Shown one piece after another: positions 14,897 to 20,444 of a DNA stretch of 22,518 bases. The notes under the pieces were generated by a model. That model was given only the letters and a program-made list of their open reading frames with translations. It searched no databases and was not told the DNA's origin. The stretch is from a virus, in the IMG/VR virus record IMGVR_UViG_3300035698_024496, positions 1 to 22,518 of that record. One strand, given 5' to 3'. Numbering within the stretch: position 1 is the first letter of the stretch; each line of letters starts with the position of its first letter. Made by a program: the position numbers and the translations under genes.

Positions 14897-16462
14897 TTAA
14901 ACCGCTTCGACCTCCGGCTCGACTGATGCAACTACAGCTGGAGCAATAACTTTTTCTTCACGAATCTTCTTAAGCTTCTCTTCCGCCATGTCGCGCGTAA
15001 TGCCTGGATTGTCTTCCTTGATTGCATCGACCTGAGTCATTAAACCCATGTCGAGTTTCATCTTGATAACATCAAGGCGCTCTTTCTCGGACTCGATCGC
15101 CTTGGGCTCACCGAATACAGAATACACATCAAACAAATCAGGGAATGCAATCGCCGATAACTCTTCGTTCAAAGATCCCTCTGCTTTAAGTCGAGCATGC
15201 CAGCGAGAATAGATCTCCCAAACAACAGGCTCGTTATCGACAAACAATTGCCGCTGGTCTTCTACGTCTTCCATGCTCTCTGATTTATCAATGATCATGG
15301 CTATTCCCGATGCGAATCCCGAGCTACCCGATAGATTCGATGCAACTCCGGATGTGCTCAGGTTATTAGTCGTTAAAAGCAATGCAACATACATTTCTAC
15401 GAGTGATCTAAGTTGATCAAGCGGAGGATTTGCGGACTTGAATTCAAATGTAGGCACAGGGTCTTCACTTTCATGTGTGAGCACAATCCCTTTATTGGGT
15501 CCTACCTTAACGTTTTTCGGCAGGTCCTTGCCTGTCATCACAAGCTGACCGTAGCCTTGAGTAATCGCTATATGATTTATATTCGTGACCATGGAGTTAA
15601 TAAGAATAGCTCCGTCGACAAGATCTTCTCCACCCTCGGCCCAGAAAGAACCATCTTGATCTTCTGCATAGTTAACAAACGGTAGCTTCTCAATTGGGTT
15701 CTCTATCTCTTCTGTAGAAATAATGTTTCCCTTCTTGTCGCATGTGAAGTGATAGGAGTCGGACCAAAACACGTAGCCGCGATCGGCCTCGTCTCCAGGC
15801 ACATCGGCAATCGTTTCATCAATGCCGTTACCAAATGTAGTCTGCATGGAAACAACGTTTCCGTTTCTCCCATCAGTGCCCGCCATTGCAGCTAGGCCAG
15901 AAGCAAATCCACCGCCTATGTTTCTAGCAGGTGAATATCCGGAAAGAATAACGACCAAAGGCTTTTCTCTATCATCACTACTTTCCACCACGTCGTAGAG
16001 GTAGGGTGGCAGCGGGGTCATTCGTATCTGAGAGTTCTCCACCATAGGGCGAATGTATAGCATCGTGTTCTTGAACAGCTTGTAGAAGCGGTTGGTCTTC
16101 TTCATTGCTTGATCTGCATCGGATTCACGCACAGCAATCGAGATAGCCTCTGTTGCTTTCTCGTCTTTAATCCCATCCACTACGATCTCGCGTTCAACAC
16201 CGTACTTATAAACGCGTGCGAGCTTGTCGATGACCTTGCGGCATATCCCGAGGTTCGAGAGCGCGTAGGACATCTCATCCACGGTGGACTTGTCGAACTG
16301 GCGTAGCAGCAAGTTCACGACGTAGAGGTGCGTCTTGTCCTTGTAACACTGATAGCGCTTGTAGGCCTCGTGCTTACGGGCGCGGTTCTCCTGCCCGTTG
16401 ATGTGTTGAATGATGCGACGGCGCGTGGCCGGGTCCAGGATGTCTTGTTCTGATTTAATCAT
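14897..16462 (-). CDS. Portal protein
   Basis: This 521-residue protein starts at ATG 16462 with GGAG eight bases upstream. The N-terminal part (helical, with HINGQENRARKHEAYKRYQC) and the middle with LPFVNYAEDQDG and LVDGAILINSMVTNINH fit SPP1 gp6-like / DUF-type portals. These are ring-forming proteins at one capsid vertex, through which DNA is packed by the terminase. Its length is close to the 503 residues of SPP1 gp6. The C-terminus is charged and helical (EEKLKKIREEKV). Its place shortly after the large terminase and before head genes is the standard order. Confidence 0.85.
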   Translation of the reverse strand: MIKSEQDILDPATRRRIIQHINGQENRARKHEAYKRYQCYKDKTHLYVVNLLLRQFDKSTVDEMSYALSNLGICRKVIDKLARVYKYGVEREIVVDGIKDEKATEAISIAVRESDADQAMKKTNRFYKLFKNTMLYIRPMVENSQIRMTPLPPYLYDVVESSDDREKPLVVILSGYSPARNIGGGFASGLAAMAGTDGRNGNVVSMQTTFGNGIDETIADVPGDEADRGYVFWSDSYHFTCDKKGNIISTEEIENPIEKLPFVNYAEDQDGSFWAEGGEDLVDGAILINSMVTNINHIAITQGYGQLVMTGKDLPKNVKVGPNKGIVLTHESEDPVPTFEFKSANPPLDQLRSLVEMYVALLLTTNNLSTSGVASNLSGSSGFASGIAMIIDKSESMEDVEDQRQLFVDNEPVVWEIYSRWHARLKAEGSLNEELSAIAFPDLFDVYSVFGEPKAIESEKERLDVIKMKLDMGLMTQVDAIKEDNPGITRDMAEEKLKKIREEKVIAPAVVASVEPEVEAV

Positions 16463-16480: not shown

Positions 16481-16639
16481 TTAACTCTCAACTATAACCG
16501 TGTCCGCTGCGCTCGACACTTCTACTACTTGCGTTTCACTTGTCTCAACTATAGCCGTGTCCGCTGCGCTCGACACTTCTACTACTTGCGTTTCACTTGT
16601 CTCGACGACTAGCGCGTTCCCGGTTACCTCTACGATCAC
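16481..16639 (-). CDS. 52-aa protein made of two near-identical 19-aa repeats
   Basis: A short frame begins at GTG (16639-16637), overlapping the preceding stop in a GTGA arrangement, and ends at TAA 16483-16481, just before the portal. It encodes MIVEVTGNALV and then two tandem copies of the unit VETSETQVVEVSSAADT(A/V)I, ending VES. The repeats alternate hydrophobic and polar residues, suggesting beta-strands. The stop-start overlap and an open frame across both repeats support a real gene. I recognise no family. It may be a minor structural or fibre-like peptide linked to its upstream neighbour. Confidence 0.6.
   Translation of the reverse strand: MIVEVTGNALVVETSETQVVEVSSAADTAIVETSETQVVEVSSAADTVIVES
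16487..16600. repeat. 57-bp tandem duplication (two copies, one mismatch)
   Basis: Bases 16487-16543 and 16544-16600 are the same 57-bp unit in tandem, differing at one position (a/g at unit base 11). A partial, diverged third start (CTCGAC) follows at 16601. The unit equals 19 codons, so copy number can change without breaking the reading frame of the 52-aa gene. Near identity implies recent duplication. Confidence 0.95.
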
Positions 16640-16986
16640 CGCGTAATCTCCGGGCTGATGGTAGCAACGCCTTGCAGTAGACGCTCGACGCTCGGGCCGC
16701 GCACTAGCTTGATGTCGTAACTCCAGCTTTGCTCGGAGGTGACGGGGATCGAAGCGCTCACGGTCGAGGTCATGCCCCAGGCGACGATGCCGCTGGCGGC
16801 GCTCGTAACGGATAGCTCGAAGGCGTAGAAGTCGGTTGCCGCTACGTTGCGGCGGACCTGTCCGCGCACCGAGGTGACGGAGGTCAGATTAACGGCGTCT
16901 CCCGCCGGATCGGTAACGCGAATCACTCGCTCGAAGGTCGCCCCTTGTTCGATAACAATGTCCAAAATTCCCGCAGCCATAGCCAC
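16636..16986 (-). CDS. Small beta-rich phage structural protein
   Basis: This 116-residue protein starts at ATG 16986 five bases after AGGAGG. It opens with AAGILDIVIEQGATFERVIRV and ends with YDIKLVRGPSVERLLQGVA followed by TISPEITR. The ending 'YD..LV.G..V.RLLQG..T.SPE.TR' is a pattern I recognise from small virion-associated proteins in many phages, often encoded near portal or tail-fibre genes and related to BppU-like N-terminal folds. The exact function is unknown. It directly follows the terminase gene and overlaps the 52-aa gene. Confidence 0.6.
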   Translation of the reverse strand: MAMAAGILDIVIEQGATFERVIRVTDPAGDAVNLTSVTSVRGQVRRNVAATDFYAFELSVTSAASGIVAWGMTSTVSASIPVTSEQSWSYDIKLVRGPSVERLLQGVATISPEITR

Positions 16987-16989
16987 CTC

Positions 16990-19110
16990 CTAGCGTACTT
17001 TGATGATATCAGATTTCTCCCTTTTGCCACTAAAGGGGAAAAGAATATCAGTTAAGTAATCCACCCCATCGGATGCATGCGTGAGCTTTGGATTCTTCTT
17101 GAGCTTCTCGAATGTAACCGGGTCCTGCTCGACTGCTTCCATGTCTCGCCGGAAAGTCGGCATGGTGAGCGGATTGTAAACGATGACTCTCTTATCGAGC
17201 AGGTTGTTCACGTTGAGTTGTCGCTGGCGCATACGCGGCGCGGCGAGACGCGAGACGACCTCGAACCCGGCGTTACGCAGGATAGTGTGATCGGGCTGAC
17301 CGTTGGTCTTGCGAGCCTTGCCTGCGGGGTCCGGATATATCGTCGTGTTCTCGGGCGTGTAGTCGCGTGCGATGAGCGCGGCGATCATGCGCATGGTGTC
17401 CGCGTTGTTGTCTATGACTATCTCGTCGAAGCCGGTGAGTCGTCCTGCGGAGTGATGCCAGAGCGTTGCTGTCATGTGCTCCACGTTGAAGTCGAGCGCG
17501 CACGAGACGGTCATTCCCGGATCGCGCATGAGGGTCTTGTCCTGGTTGCGATCCGAGTGGGCGTAGTAGAACTGGTTTCCGTTCATGTTAACCCAGAGGC
17601 CCTCAAGATAGGCCTGAAGAGTAGCTGAGTCGTAACTTGCCCGCAGTGATTGAATATAAGCTGGGTCTATATTTTCGGCGTTGTCCATTGTTTTGGCGTA
17701 TAGGATGCGTGAGTTTTCCATGGGCTTCTCAACGAATAAATCATGCATGTAATTGCCGATAGATTCTGGCGTACCGCTTGAATAGATTTGAGGACACACG
17801 GCCCCCTTGACTCGAACACGTCCGATGCACTCCAGGTAGCTCTTGCGCGATATGAGAGTAGCCTCGTTGATCGCCATGTCAGAAAGGTTGGGACCTCGAA
17901 TCTTATTCTCAGCAGTGAATAGGTAGAGCTTCCCCTTGCACCATGGAAAGGTGAAGACCTTATCCGTTTGGTGGTAGCGATGTGGAACTTTATTCTCTTC
18001 AAAGATTTGTTCGAACGTAGGCAGCACGTCCTTTTTAAGTTCGGCGTAGCTAGGAGCCGTTAGACCGCCTGAAAAGTTGCGATTGATCCAACGAAACTTG
18101 ATAGCCTTCATACATAGTGAATAGGTTTTCCCCGAGTTATGATGTATCGCACCGTCTTCGGTAACGTAGTTGTTGGTCTCCAAAACGTGCATATCCCAAA
18201 CCCATTCGGCTGGTAGTTTTTCTATTGCCAGAACTATGGATTTGCCTAAGGTGCAAGCCAATGTACGATCTAAAGAAGATAGAGAAACTATGCGATGGCG
18301 TTCGTTCGAGCAGGGATATTGCGGCGTTAACCGGCTTCCCCCAGAAATATATTCAGGCCGTGGCACTGAGAAATAACTGGCCTCGTCGCTATCAAGGGAG
18401 CGCATGCGGAAAGCTGAATGGTCAGTATAAGTTTGGCCGATCGATTGATCATGACGGCTATGTGCTTGTGCCAGCAACTTTAGCTCATCCAAATGCTCGT
18501 CGATGTAAGGGAGATTTGACCGGCACAATACTTGAGCATCGGCGGGCAATGGAAGCGCACCTAGGGCGCTACTTAGAAAAAGCGGAAGTGGTTGACCATG
18601 TTGATGGGTGCCACCTTCATAACGCGATAGAAAATCTTCGGTTGTTTTCCTCAAATGGGGATCACTTAAGAAGCACGATTTCGGGACGAGTTCCAAGCTG
18701 GAGCCCGAAAGGGTTTCTGAATATAAAATTTTATCGCCTACCGAAAGATCGCCAACGTGTCGATACACATGATCAGCGCAAAAAACTCGGTGAAGTGCGC
18801 TTGCTACAAATTCTCCTCGCTCATGCACTACTCGATAAAGAATCTCCTTACCTTTTGGGAACGCATGGCTACCTAGAGAAAGCTGAGATTGATTACTCTT
18901 CTCGTTCCAAGATAGAACAGGCCGTGACTTCGTTATATCTGAAATGGGAACTAGACCCGATGCCGTTCTTATTAAAGATGAATCTATGAGACACGAGTAT
19001 CCACCGCTTAGGTGGATGAATCTTGAGTGCAAGTCGTTGTGAAAATCCGCTTGATGCGGAAGCATTTTATAACGGATGTTGAGCTTCATGGATAACCCCG
19101 GGCCGCTCAT
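16990..19110 (-). CDS. Terminase large subunit (TerL) precursor interrupted by an intein
   Basis: TerL is the packaging motor: an ATPase plus an RNase H-fold nuclease. From ATG 19110 the precursor is 706 residues. Residues 40-325 are an intein, and splicing would leave 420 residues, a normal TerL length. Joining the flanks gives a Walker A of GGYS|SGKT. Walker B-like MAINEA lies at 412-417 and a coupling motif YSSGTPES near 443-450. Nuclease acidic residues are Asp540 (ALDFNVEH), Asp594 (YPDPAGK) and Asp681/Asp684 (SDGVDY). I chose ATG 19110 because GAAGG lies upstream; ATG 19089 and 19128 are alternatives. All starts lie inside the end of the methyltransferase gene. Packaging should depend on the intein splicing itself out. 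Confidence 0.9.
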   Translation of the reverse strand: MSGPGLSMKLNIRYKMLPHQADFHNDLHSRFIHLSGGYSCLIDSSLIRTASGLVPISDITKSRPVLSWNEKSNQSQLSLGSHAFPKGKEILYRVVHERGEFVASALHRVFCADHVYRHVGDLSVGDKILYSETLSGSSLELVPKSCFLSDPHLRKTTEDFLSRYEGGTHQHGQPLPLFLSSALGALPLPADAQVLCRSNLPYIDEHLDELKLLAQAHSRHDQSIGQTYTDHSAFRMRSLDSDEASYFSVPRPEYISGGSRLTPQYPCSNERHRIVSLSSLDRTLACTLGKSIVLAIEKLPAEWVWDMHVLETNNYVTEDGAIHHNSGKTYSLCMKAIKFRWINRNFSGGLTAPSYAELKKDVLPTFEQIFEENKVPHRYHQTDKVFTFPWCKGKLYLFTAENKIRGPNLSDMAINEATLISRKSYLECIGRVRVKGAVCPQIYSSGTPESIGNYMHDLFVEKPMENSRILYAKTMDNAENIDPAYIQSLRASYDSATLQAYLEGLWVNMNGNQFYYAHSDRNQDKTLMRDPGMTVSCALDFNVEHMTATLWHHSAGRLTGFDEIVIDNNADTMRMIAALIARDYTPENTTIYPDPAGKARKTNGQPDHTILRNAGFEVVSRLAAPRMRQRQLNVNNLLDKRVIVYNPLTMPTFRRDMEAVEQDPVTFEKLKKNPKLTHASDGVDYLTDILFPFSGKREKSDIIKVR
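18248..18253 (+). promoter_or_regulatory. Ribosome binding site for the antisense HNH gene
   Basis: AAGGTG lies seven bases before ATG 18261 on the plus strand. It makes ATG 18261 a better start than the in-frame TTG at 18225, which lacks a comparable site, and shows the antisense frame has its own translation signal. On the other strand these same bases encode intein linker. Confidence 0.5.
18261..18989 (+). CDS. HNH homing endonuclease encoded antisense inside the intein
   Basis: This plus-strand gene encodes 242 residues from ATG 18261, with AAGGTG seven bases upstream; TTG 18225 would add 12. The N-terminus has a helix-turn-helix-like segment (DIAALTGFPQKYIQAVALRN). It is followed by an HNH_3-type core: GYVLVPATLAHPNA, LEHRRAMEAHLGR, EVVDHVDG, LHNAIENLRLFSS and GDHLR. 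The core His and Asn residues are at 18597-18599 (DHVDG His), 18621-18623 and 18633-18635. A basic C-terminal domain (RLPKDRQRVDTHDQRKK) may bind DNA. The gene lies wholly within the intein DNA, its stop ending 4 bp short of the edge, and is the only convincing plus-strand gene here. It is expected to cut intein-free terminase genes and drive homing. The HNH family is recognised; activity is inferred. Confidence 0.85.
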   Translation: MYDLKKIEKLCDGVRSSRDIAALTGFPQKYIQAVALRNNWPRRYQGSACGKLNGQYKFGRSIDHDGYVLVPATLAHPNARRCKGDLTGTILEHRRAMEAHLGRYLEKAEVVDHVDGCHLHNAIENLRLFSSNGDHLRSTISGRVPSWSPKGFLNIKFYRLPKDRQRVDTHDQRKKLGEVRLLQILLAHALLDKESPYLLGTHGYLEKAEIDYSSRSKIEQAVTSLYLKWELDPMPFLLKMNL

Positions 19111-19972
19111 AAGTGAACACCTTCTCAACGGACGGTGTGCTAGTTTTGGAGTTAGTTTTCTGATGCTTAATGGCCATGACGACTTTCATGTCGGGCGGAG
19201 CGGTGTACTCCGATACGAAGATTCGGTGCGGGGATGTGCGCACCCATTGCCAGAACTTATCGTGATCGAATGGCCGCGTGTATCCGGTTGTGCCCGCGTA
19301 GGGCGGATCGCAGTAGATAACCGAGTTCGGAAGAATCGGCACCGACTCGTAACTGAGCGAGGTGGTAGATAGCCGCGTCTCCGGACGTTCGAGCCGTTCG
19401 AGCCGTTGGAGCCGTTCAAGCTGTTGGAGCCGTTCAAGCTGTTGGAGATGTTGGAGCTGCATCCTCACCGTCCTCCCCGTCTTACGCAAGTAACCGCACG
19501 CGGCCAGGCGCCGACCGCGAATGGATAGATGCTCGGGCCAGCCGTTTATCCCGAGTAGCTCGCTAGCGGTCTTATCGAACTCGCCGAACACCACGGCCAT
19601 ATGGAGCGAGCGCTTAAACCCCTCGATGCCCTTACCGAAGAGATAATCTTTCTGGTTATTGCCGAAGCTCCACACGACTCGCGTATAGGCGCACGTCGCC
19701 TTGCGTGCTTCGAACATCTCGCGAGTAACCCACTCGGGAAGGAACCTGTCGTATGAGTAGCGTCCGGCGATGGCGTCCTTTACTAGCGCGACGGTGCTGG
19801 GCTCGATCTCGTTGTAGTGAACGCGGCACTTCCGGTGAGCCAGCATGAAGTGAGATACGGAGAACCCGCCGCCGAATAGGTCGTAGAAGTTATCGCACTC
19901 GGGGAAGAGCGTTGCGATCTTATGTATGATGGCTTGCTTGCTACCCTGATAGGGCAGTCCGTAATCAGCCAA
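19067..19972 (-). CDS. D12-class DNA N6-adenine methyltransferase
   Basis: This Dam-like enzyme transfers a methyl group from S-adenosylmethionine to adenine in a short DNA site. Numbered from the TTG at 19972, it has YQGSK at 8-12 and DLFGGGFSV at 31-39 (the AdoMet-binding motif). Catalytic YCDPPYAGTTGY sits at about 220-231, the expected D12 order. I chose TTG 19972 because it overlaps the ParB-like stop. A longer frame to ATG 20077 is buried in that gene and its first 35 residues look unconstrained. Residues 173-196 are a Leu-every-third-residue run (LQQLERL...) from a 9-bp DNA repeat. A phage methyltransferase next to packaging genes probably protects phage DNA from host nucleases. Confidence 0.88.
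   Translation of the reverse strand: MADYGLPYQGSKQAIIHKIATLFPECDNFYDLFGGGFSVSHFMLAHRKCRVHYNEIEPSTVALVKDAIAGRYSYDRFLPEWVTREMFEARKATCAYTRVVWSFGNNQKDYLFGKGIEGFKRSLHMAVVFGEFDKTASELLGINGWPEHLSIRGRRLAACGYLRKTGRTVRMQLQHLQQLERLQQLERLQRLERLERPETRLSTTSLSYESVPILPNSVIYCDPPYAGTTGYTRPFDHDKFWQWVRTSPHRIFVSEYTAPPDMKVVMAIKHQKTNSKTSTPSVEKVFTYERPGVIHEAQHPL
19391..19462. repeat. 9-bp minisatellite inside the methyltransferase gene
   Basis: Eight consecutive 9-bp units (consensus GAGCCGTTC with variants AAGCTGTTG, GAGCCGTTG and GAGATGTTG) run from 19391 to 19462, including a perfect 18-bp double unit repeated at 19409-19426 and 19427-19444. Each unit is three codons, giving QQL, ERL or QRL triplets on the minus strand. 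The length can vary without a frameshift. Confidence 0.9.
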
Positions 19973-20444
19973 GTAGCACGCCGCAATTCGGGCACGACGC
20001 CATGTCGGATTCTTTCTCCTTAGGGTCCTTCTTGTCCGAAGGCTCGTCGTAATCGATCTCCGGAATACGAAGCTCATGGAGTCTAAGGGATCTCATGAAA
20101 TCCTCACCCAACGCGCCATTGATATCGTCTAAGAGAACCTTAAGCACGTCGTCGAACTCGCCCTGAATGTGGCTGTTGTTCATCGTCAGGTTCAGAGCTT
20201 TCTCTTGAACTGGATCGAGATCCACATAGACAACAGGGACCTTGGTCCAATCAATTTCGATGGCTGCAATTAATCTCTGATGCCCTGAGATGAGTACGCC
20301 TGAGCGTGAGTTAACAACGAGCGGCTGAGGCATGCCGAACTTTCGGAGCGACTCCTTCAAGCCCTCCATAGCCGGATTGCTTATCCTTCGAGGGTTATAC
20401 TTAGCCGGGTTGATGTCCCCAATCGGGACCATACTAATCTTCAT
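19965..20444 (-). CDS. ParB/Srx-fold N-terminal domain protein
   Basis: This 159-residue protein has the ParB/Srx-like fold: an early strand IGDINPAKYNPRRI, an LKESLRKFGMPQPLVVN helix-strand, and the nucleotide-binding-like GHQRLIAAIE box (usually GHxRxxA). Length and architecture fit single-domain phage ParB-like proteins that often sit beside DNA methyltransferase and terminase genes. The C-terminus is charged and ends in a CPNC knuckle. ATG 20444 overlaps the preceding stop by 11 bp. The family may act as a CTPase/ATPase or nuclease, or assist the methyltransferase; which applies here is not visible. Confidence 0.8.
   Translation of the reverse strand: MKISMVPIGDINPAKYNPRRISNPAMEGLKESLRKFGMPQPLVVNSRSGVLISGHQRLIAAIEIDWTKVPVVYVDLDPVQEKALNLTMNNSHIQGEFDDVLKVLLDDINGALGEDFMRSLRLHELRIPEIDYDEPSDKKDPKEKESDMASCPNCGVLLG

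Follow-up and report, generated by a model that had tools for sequence, protein, structure and literature searches.

The window, that is, the whole 22.5-kb stretch of DNA analysed here, is an IMG/VR virus record whose minus strand carries phage structural genes, including those for terminase subunits and the major head protein, among others. The terminase large subunit gene, terL, occupies positions 16990-19089 of the minus strand and is recognized by Pfam Terminase_6N (E = 4.7e-9) and by PHROG terminase large subunit matches. Its start is placed at the ATG at 19087-19089; the longest open reading frame (ORF) extends to a TTG at 19128. The Walker A motif of TerL is split by an insert, with both junctions marked here by carets: HLSGGYS^CLIDSS...DGAIHHN^SGKT.

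Repeats of several kinds are present near terL. In the D12 methyltransferase ORF (19067-20077, minus strand), an in-frame tandem repeat of 9/18/27 bp at 19386-19459 encodes a Leu-Glu/Gln-Arg-rich stretch of this D12/Dam-like enzyme, whose length differs in the relative L002. Two near-perfect 57-bp tandem copies lie at 16486-16603, between the ORFs 14897-16462 and 16636-16986. In L004, the closest relative of the window, an ORF near the intein-bearing terL (L004:3-698) contains long Ala/Ser/Trp-rich repeats (SAAWSAARSAA...).

The insert (18136-18993, minus strand) is 858 bp long and reads as 286 stop-free codons between GGYS and SGKT, from Cys1 to a terminal HHN. Pfam Intein_splicing aligns with its residues 15-286 at E = 3e-4, a value under Pfam's cut-off; the same profile matches 37 of the 47 intein relatives at E ≤ 0.01, the best of them at 7e-9. 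In an AlphaFold2 model based on 47 relatives, both splicing halves have a pLDDT above 90 (up to residue 90 in the N-terminal half), and residues 137 to 241, with values mostly below 50, are predicted to be mostly disordered. Foldseek pairs the model with the Ssp DnaB mini-intein M86 (PDB 6frg) at E = 2e-8. From these models and from the substitution patterns described below, we divide the intein into an N-terminal splicing half (residues 1-95, 18709-18993), a linker (residues 96-245, 18259-18708) and a C-terminal splicing half (residues 246-286, 18136-18258), all on the minus strand.

The residues expected of a class 1 intein are in place. The nucleophile Cys1, the block B histidine H68 and the terminal H285 and N286 do not vary among the 47 inteins aligned, which come from the window and from viral loci, and the +1 residue of the window is Ser. 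Block B of class 1 follows the pattern T/S-x-x-H: the window has S65 three residues before H68, and the same position is T or S in four other inteins, read by eye. Altogether, the minus-strand insert is a class-1-type intein with catalytic residues and, as modelled, a complete HINT fold resembling that of mini-inteins; it is predicted to splice. The in-frame endonuclease domain of a standard endonuclease-containing intein is absent: the linker is disordered and domain-free, and the HNH domain lies on the other strand. A group I intron was also considered and rejected: at E ≤ 1, Rfam matched nothing in 17000-19600.

On the plus strand, the same bases hold a gene for a helix-turn-helix HNH endonuclease of 242 residues (18261-18989), which starts with the ATG at 18261 and ends with the TGA at 18987-18989, 4 bp short of the intein edge. 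Its product matches Pfam HNH_3 at E = 1e-7 (32 bits, against a curated cut-off of 24.8), as do 46 of 47 relatives, and PHROG 10730 at E = 8e-52 over almost its full length. The predicted structure has a mean pLDDT of 90.8; its best Foldseek neighbour is the homing endonuclease I-HmuI, a weak match (E = 0.14, probability 0.98). The protein begins with a helix-turn-helix region (18309-18371; model helices 16-23 and 27-36), to which helix-turn-helix families match in several relatives. The HNH_3 core follows (18537-18656), with its active-site His-Arg, Asp-His-x-Asp, Asn and His columns invariant in 47 sequences, and then a helical C-terminal part opposite the N-terminal splicing half of the intein. 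The core faces intein residues 113-153.

An AAGGTG site, similar to a Shine-Dalgarno sequence, is found at 18248-18253 of the plus strand, 7 nt upstream of the ATG. In the family as a whole, 35 of 50 clusters have a Shine-Dalgarno core before the first ATG of the HNH gene, compared with 40 of 650 same-strand control ATGs (P = 2e-26), a test in which the weaker AAGG-type site of the window itself scored negative. We recognized no plus-strand promoter of sigma-70 consensus in 17900-19200.

An earlier note on this DNA, made from the letters alone, had described a complete intein inside TerL, an HNH_3-type gene of about 242 residues opposite to it, the AAGGTG site, a stop codon 4 bp from the intein edge and an HNH core facing the linker. 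All of these are found as described, and profile searches with both translations agree with the proposed families, above the cut-off for HNH_3 and below it for Intein_splicing in the window itself. Two of its statements hold in part. The two genes were said to share almost all their bases: the HNH gene does span 85% of the intein, but the C-terminal splicing half stays single-coded. They were also said to differ in strand, frame and promoter; the frame is indeed antisense, and the separate promoter is left unsupported by the scan given above.

The two genes are found together far beyond the window. Every one of the best 80 viral loci retrieved with an HNH alignment carries an open antisense ORF ending with the intein-type HHN[ST], and all of the best 80 retrieved with an intein alignment carry an antisense HNH ORF, the two sets sharing contigs; in the second set the HNH or the intein is partial in three cases, L006 and L230 being shortened and L239 lying at a contig end. 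The HNH frame is thus conserved opposite the intein, the point on which the earlier note had staked its claim. Merging of identical sequences leaves 68 distinct intein DNAs, which form 50 clusters at 85% HNH identity. All 68, from the TerL family, have the intein at the same point of Walker A and the HNH gene in a single register, with HNH codon positions 1/2/3 opposite intein positions 1/3/2.

Carriers include eight cultured Pectobacterium or Dickeya phages and the Pseudoalteromonas phage PHS3, as well as bacterial contigs of Enterobacter, Acinetobacter and E. coli MEI003, the last as a prophage. Its presence in isolate genomes shows that the arrangement did not arise from faulty assembly. 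In E. coli MEI003, the HNH gene has been annotated and terL marked incomplete; in Pectobacterium phage Ymer, the ORF of terL with its intein has been called and the HNH gene missed. Both misannotations result from the two-strand design, and surveys for inteins that build on annotations of this sort are apt to overlook the class.

Several observations point to mobility. Of 879 E. coli genomes that match this prophage region, a single one contains the element, and its junction, compared with the intein-free allele of strain Z247, is exact, with nothing lost or duplicated. Two relatives of the window, L007 and L008, have a TerL that is empty at the same codon boundary. The endonuclease gene thus resides inside its own element, which is inserted exactly and distributed patchily, as homing implies. 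Horizontal movement is also indicated by divergence: in 4 of the 16 pairs compared, the intein has diverged less than the exteins, with P between 0.013 and 1e-6. In the pair L038/L035, third-position differences amount to 3% in the C-terminal half against about 43% in the exteins (P = 1e-6), a contrast that would follow from transfer of the element between alleles that had diverged beforehand. HNH proteins retain a median identity of 46% across TerLs that are less than 22% identical.

Identity between E. coli sequences also breaks near the element, on one side and with a single boundary; this could be ordinary prophage mosaicism. A two-sided coconversion tract was considered there and, with one boundary seen, was not used as proof. 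Further along the MEI003 TerL (L095), in its C-terminal part, a stretch of about 30 residues (VVVNSSNPPVKDRVNSMNAMFCNANGERR) occurs in tandem, with a matching gap relative to the intein-free allele.

Judged from comparative evidence, a homing function of the element is likely. The closest competitor accepts both genes as real and holds that the HNH protein is inactive in this phage, the pair being passively inherited. Homing endonucleases often decay once fixed, and one such event is visible: in L006, an in-frame deletion of 261 nt takes out part of the HNH gene and leaves the intein and TerL open; apart from this deletion, two differences separate the ORF compared from that of L004. This is a natural loss of the HNH. 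However, in the window and in nearly all relatives the HNH gene is intact and constrained, with invariant active-site residues, so that a degenerate state is improbable here.

The homing element has a wider circle of relatives. Distant members have a shorter HNH gene, which lies over the linker and leaves most of the N-terminal splicing half uncovered; in most of those examined, it ends about 115-244 nt short of the intein edge. A search with these short-form HNHs returned at least 515 relatives. Among the best 79 of them, 73 are antisense to both intein halves in one ORF and 4 are partial; an intein was not found opposite the other 2. The antisense register is identical in all 73 cases. Their hosts include TerL, a RecD/UvrD-like helicase, SNF2/ResIII-type helicases, a clamp-loader-type AAA protein, a protein with a weak SMC/RecF-type match and other P-loop proteins, and in nearly all of them a Walker A-like sequence follows the intein.

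We consider it probable that these elements form a large, undescribed class of mobile inteins, found in the Walker A motifs of numerous ATPases from phages and prophages and carrying an antisense HNH gene in a fixed register, with a branch, that of the window, in which this gene overprints the N-terminal half and two unrelated enzymes of known fold occupy common base pairs under dual selection. From the two forms we infer that a mini-intein acquired an antisense HNH gene in its linker, and that the branch of the window then extended the 3' end of this gene over the N-terminal half. The HNH ORF L166:1687-2577, in a Terminase_6N host, comes within 7 nt of the intein edge; its C-terminal part does not resemble that of the main long form and may have spread over the N-terminal half independently. 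In L309, L290 and L298, the minus-strand ORFs encode host proteins with an additional Hint or intein match beside the antisense-HNH intein; in L309 an in-frame LAGLIDADG domain adjoins the intein match, and both endonuclease arrangements may coexist in one protein.

The range of hosts bears on whether the HNH protein could be a packaging accessory of the terminase rather than a homing endonuclease. In the window it is encoded inside terL, and HNH proteins beside terminase genes are known as packaging components from literature cited in PMC10448857. Such a role fits poorly with a gene present in 1 of 879 E. coli genomes and missing from the TerL relatives L007 and L008, or with relatives that occupy helicases, a clamp loader and other P-loop genes; we regard it as very unlikely.

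Selection on the two frames can be examined separately, because in this register the third codon base of either gene is paired with the second codon base of its partner. We counted differences per site at intein codon positions 1/2/3 in 16 independent pairs. The exteins give.133/.087/.391, and the single-coded C-terminal half, at.063/.045/.258, has the same normal wobble. In the linker the values are.072/.246/.055, the maximum falling on position 2, which is the HNH wobble base; in the overlapped N-terminal half substitutions are suppressed throughout (.047/.069/.101). Evolution in the linker thus follows the HNH frame and in the C-terminal half the intein frame, with the N-terminal half constrained by both. 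A natural control is available in the short-form pair L171/L176. HNH coding leaves most of its N-terminal half free, and the wobble there is normal (.095/.071/.357), next to a linker at.117/.444/.041. The most conserved linker residues of the intein sit opposite the active-site residues of the HNH protein.

These numbers also weigh on the possibility that the minus-strand insert is a chance-open frame that does not splice, TerL being either broken or functional with the insert, as proposed for ShiLan. The linker does behave like a neutral translation of the HNH strand. Against this stand the complete HINT fold, the invariance of Cys1, His68, His285 and Asn286, and the normal purifying selection on the single-coded C-terminal half; moreover, an ATPase whose Walker A motif is interrupted would not work until the insert is taken out. 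We hold a non-splicing insert to be just as unlikely as a packaging accessory.

Chance was evaluated by synonymous recoding. In 1000 recodings of the window's intein the antisense frame was open 0 times, with a mean of 7.4 stops, and 1000 recodings of its HNH gene left the intein frame open 0 times; in one other member the frame was open in 18 of 1000. In each of 16 pairs, the HNH identity observed was above that of every one of 200 simulated controls. The pseudocounts, however, exaggerate the change expected under the null when the two members are almost identical; because of this bias, the weight is placed on the per-site substitution pattern. There is a negligible likelihood that codon usage in the intein created the HNH frame as a side effect, with no functional product: chance can produce long antisense ORFs, as that one member illustrates, but not in the recoded window, and the profile match, the confident fold, the invariant active site, the linker substitutions on the HNH wobble base and the enriched Shine-Dalgarno sites all oppose it. 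Each refuting condition of the earlier note that lends itself to computation came out in the note's favour. It is very likely that both genes are real and jointly selected.

The element of the window is best interpreted as an ambisense homing intein, to which we assign a probability of about 0.88 on comparative and sequence grounds. The class-1-type intein would be translated together with TerL from the minus strand and would excise itself, so that the Walker A motif is rejoined as GGYS-SGKT. The helix-turn-helix HNH endonuclease would be translated from its own antisense mRNA, on the plus strand, and probably recognizes and cuts the intein-free Walker A DNA. Repair from the occupied allele would then copy the segment, so that both genes move together. 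The linker DNA is kept for the sake of the HNH gene and serves the intein as a spacer, for the most part disordered; where the HNH gene overlaps the N-terminal splicing half, both proteins constrain the shared bases. The mobility of the element rests on comparison of alleles and relatives, from which homing is inferred.

With such a design the endonuclease is uncoupled from the host gene, since it stands apart from the precursor protein and its timing and amount can differ from those of TerL. The locus is also an unusually clean natural case of a long antisense overlap, in which both products have a recognized fold and both frames are under selection; its single-coded parts and its short-form relatives serve as built-in controls.

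The working mode of a homing intein is familiar; the two-strand arrangement is not. In the open-access literature we found no published description of an endonuclease antisense to its intein, in agreement with the earlier note, which knew of none. Standard large inteins carry an in-frame LAGLIDADG or HNH domain between their splicing halves. The window shares with them the division between splicing and mobility, and its HNH core lies opposite the linker, the usual place of the endonuclease; unlike theirs, its endonuclease is a separate protein of the opposite strand, outside the precursor. The splicing fold is like that of the mini-intein Ssp DnaB M86 (PDB 6frg), from which the window differs by a linker that is long because its DNA carries the HNH gene.

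Mycobacteriophage TerL proteins contain P-loop inteins in Walker A, some of them spliced and with active endonucleases (PMC5050341). The intein of the window likewise sits in the Walker A motif of a phage terminase, at another point, before Ser/Thr-Gly-Lys instead of between Lys and Thr as in TerL1-a; that paper mentions no antisense arrangement for these inteins. Group I introns of nuclear rDNA can have homing endonuclease genes on the antisense strand (PMC9548176), again opposite to the host gene and within a self-splicing element. There, however, the splicing element is RNA, the gene is inserted in the peripheral RNA segment P9.2 and its bases encode no second protein.

Among the published cases that we found, the nearest is the ShiLan insertion, which has an out-of-frame HNH on the same strand and no detectable splicing domain (PMC11855218). 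Both are stop-free insertions in a phage gene that hide an HNH in another frame, with a patchy, homing-like distribution. They differ in that the HNH gene of the window is antisense and that its insertion, endowed with a HINT fold, is a complete intein.
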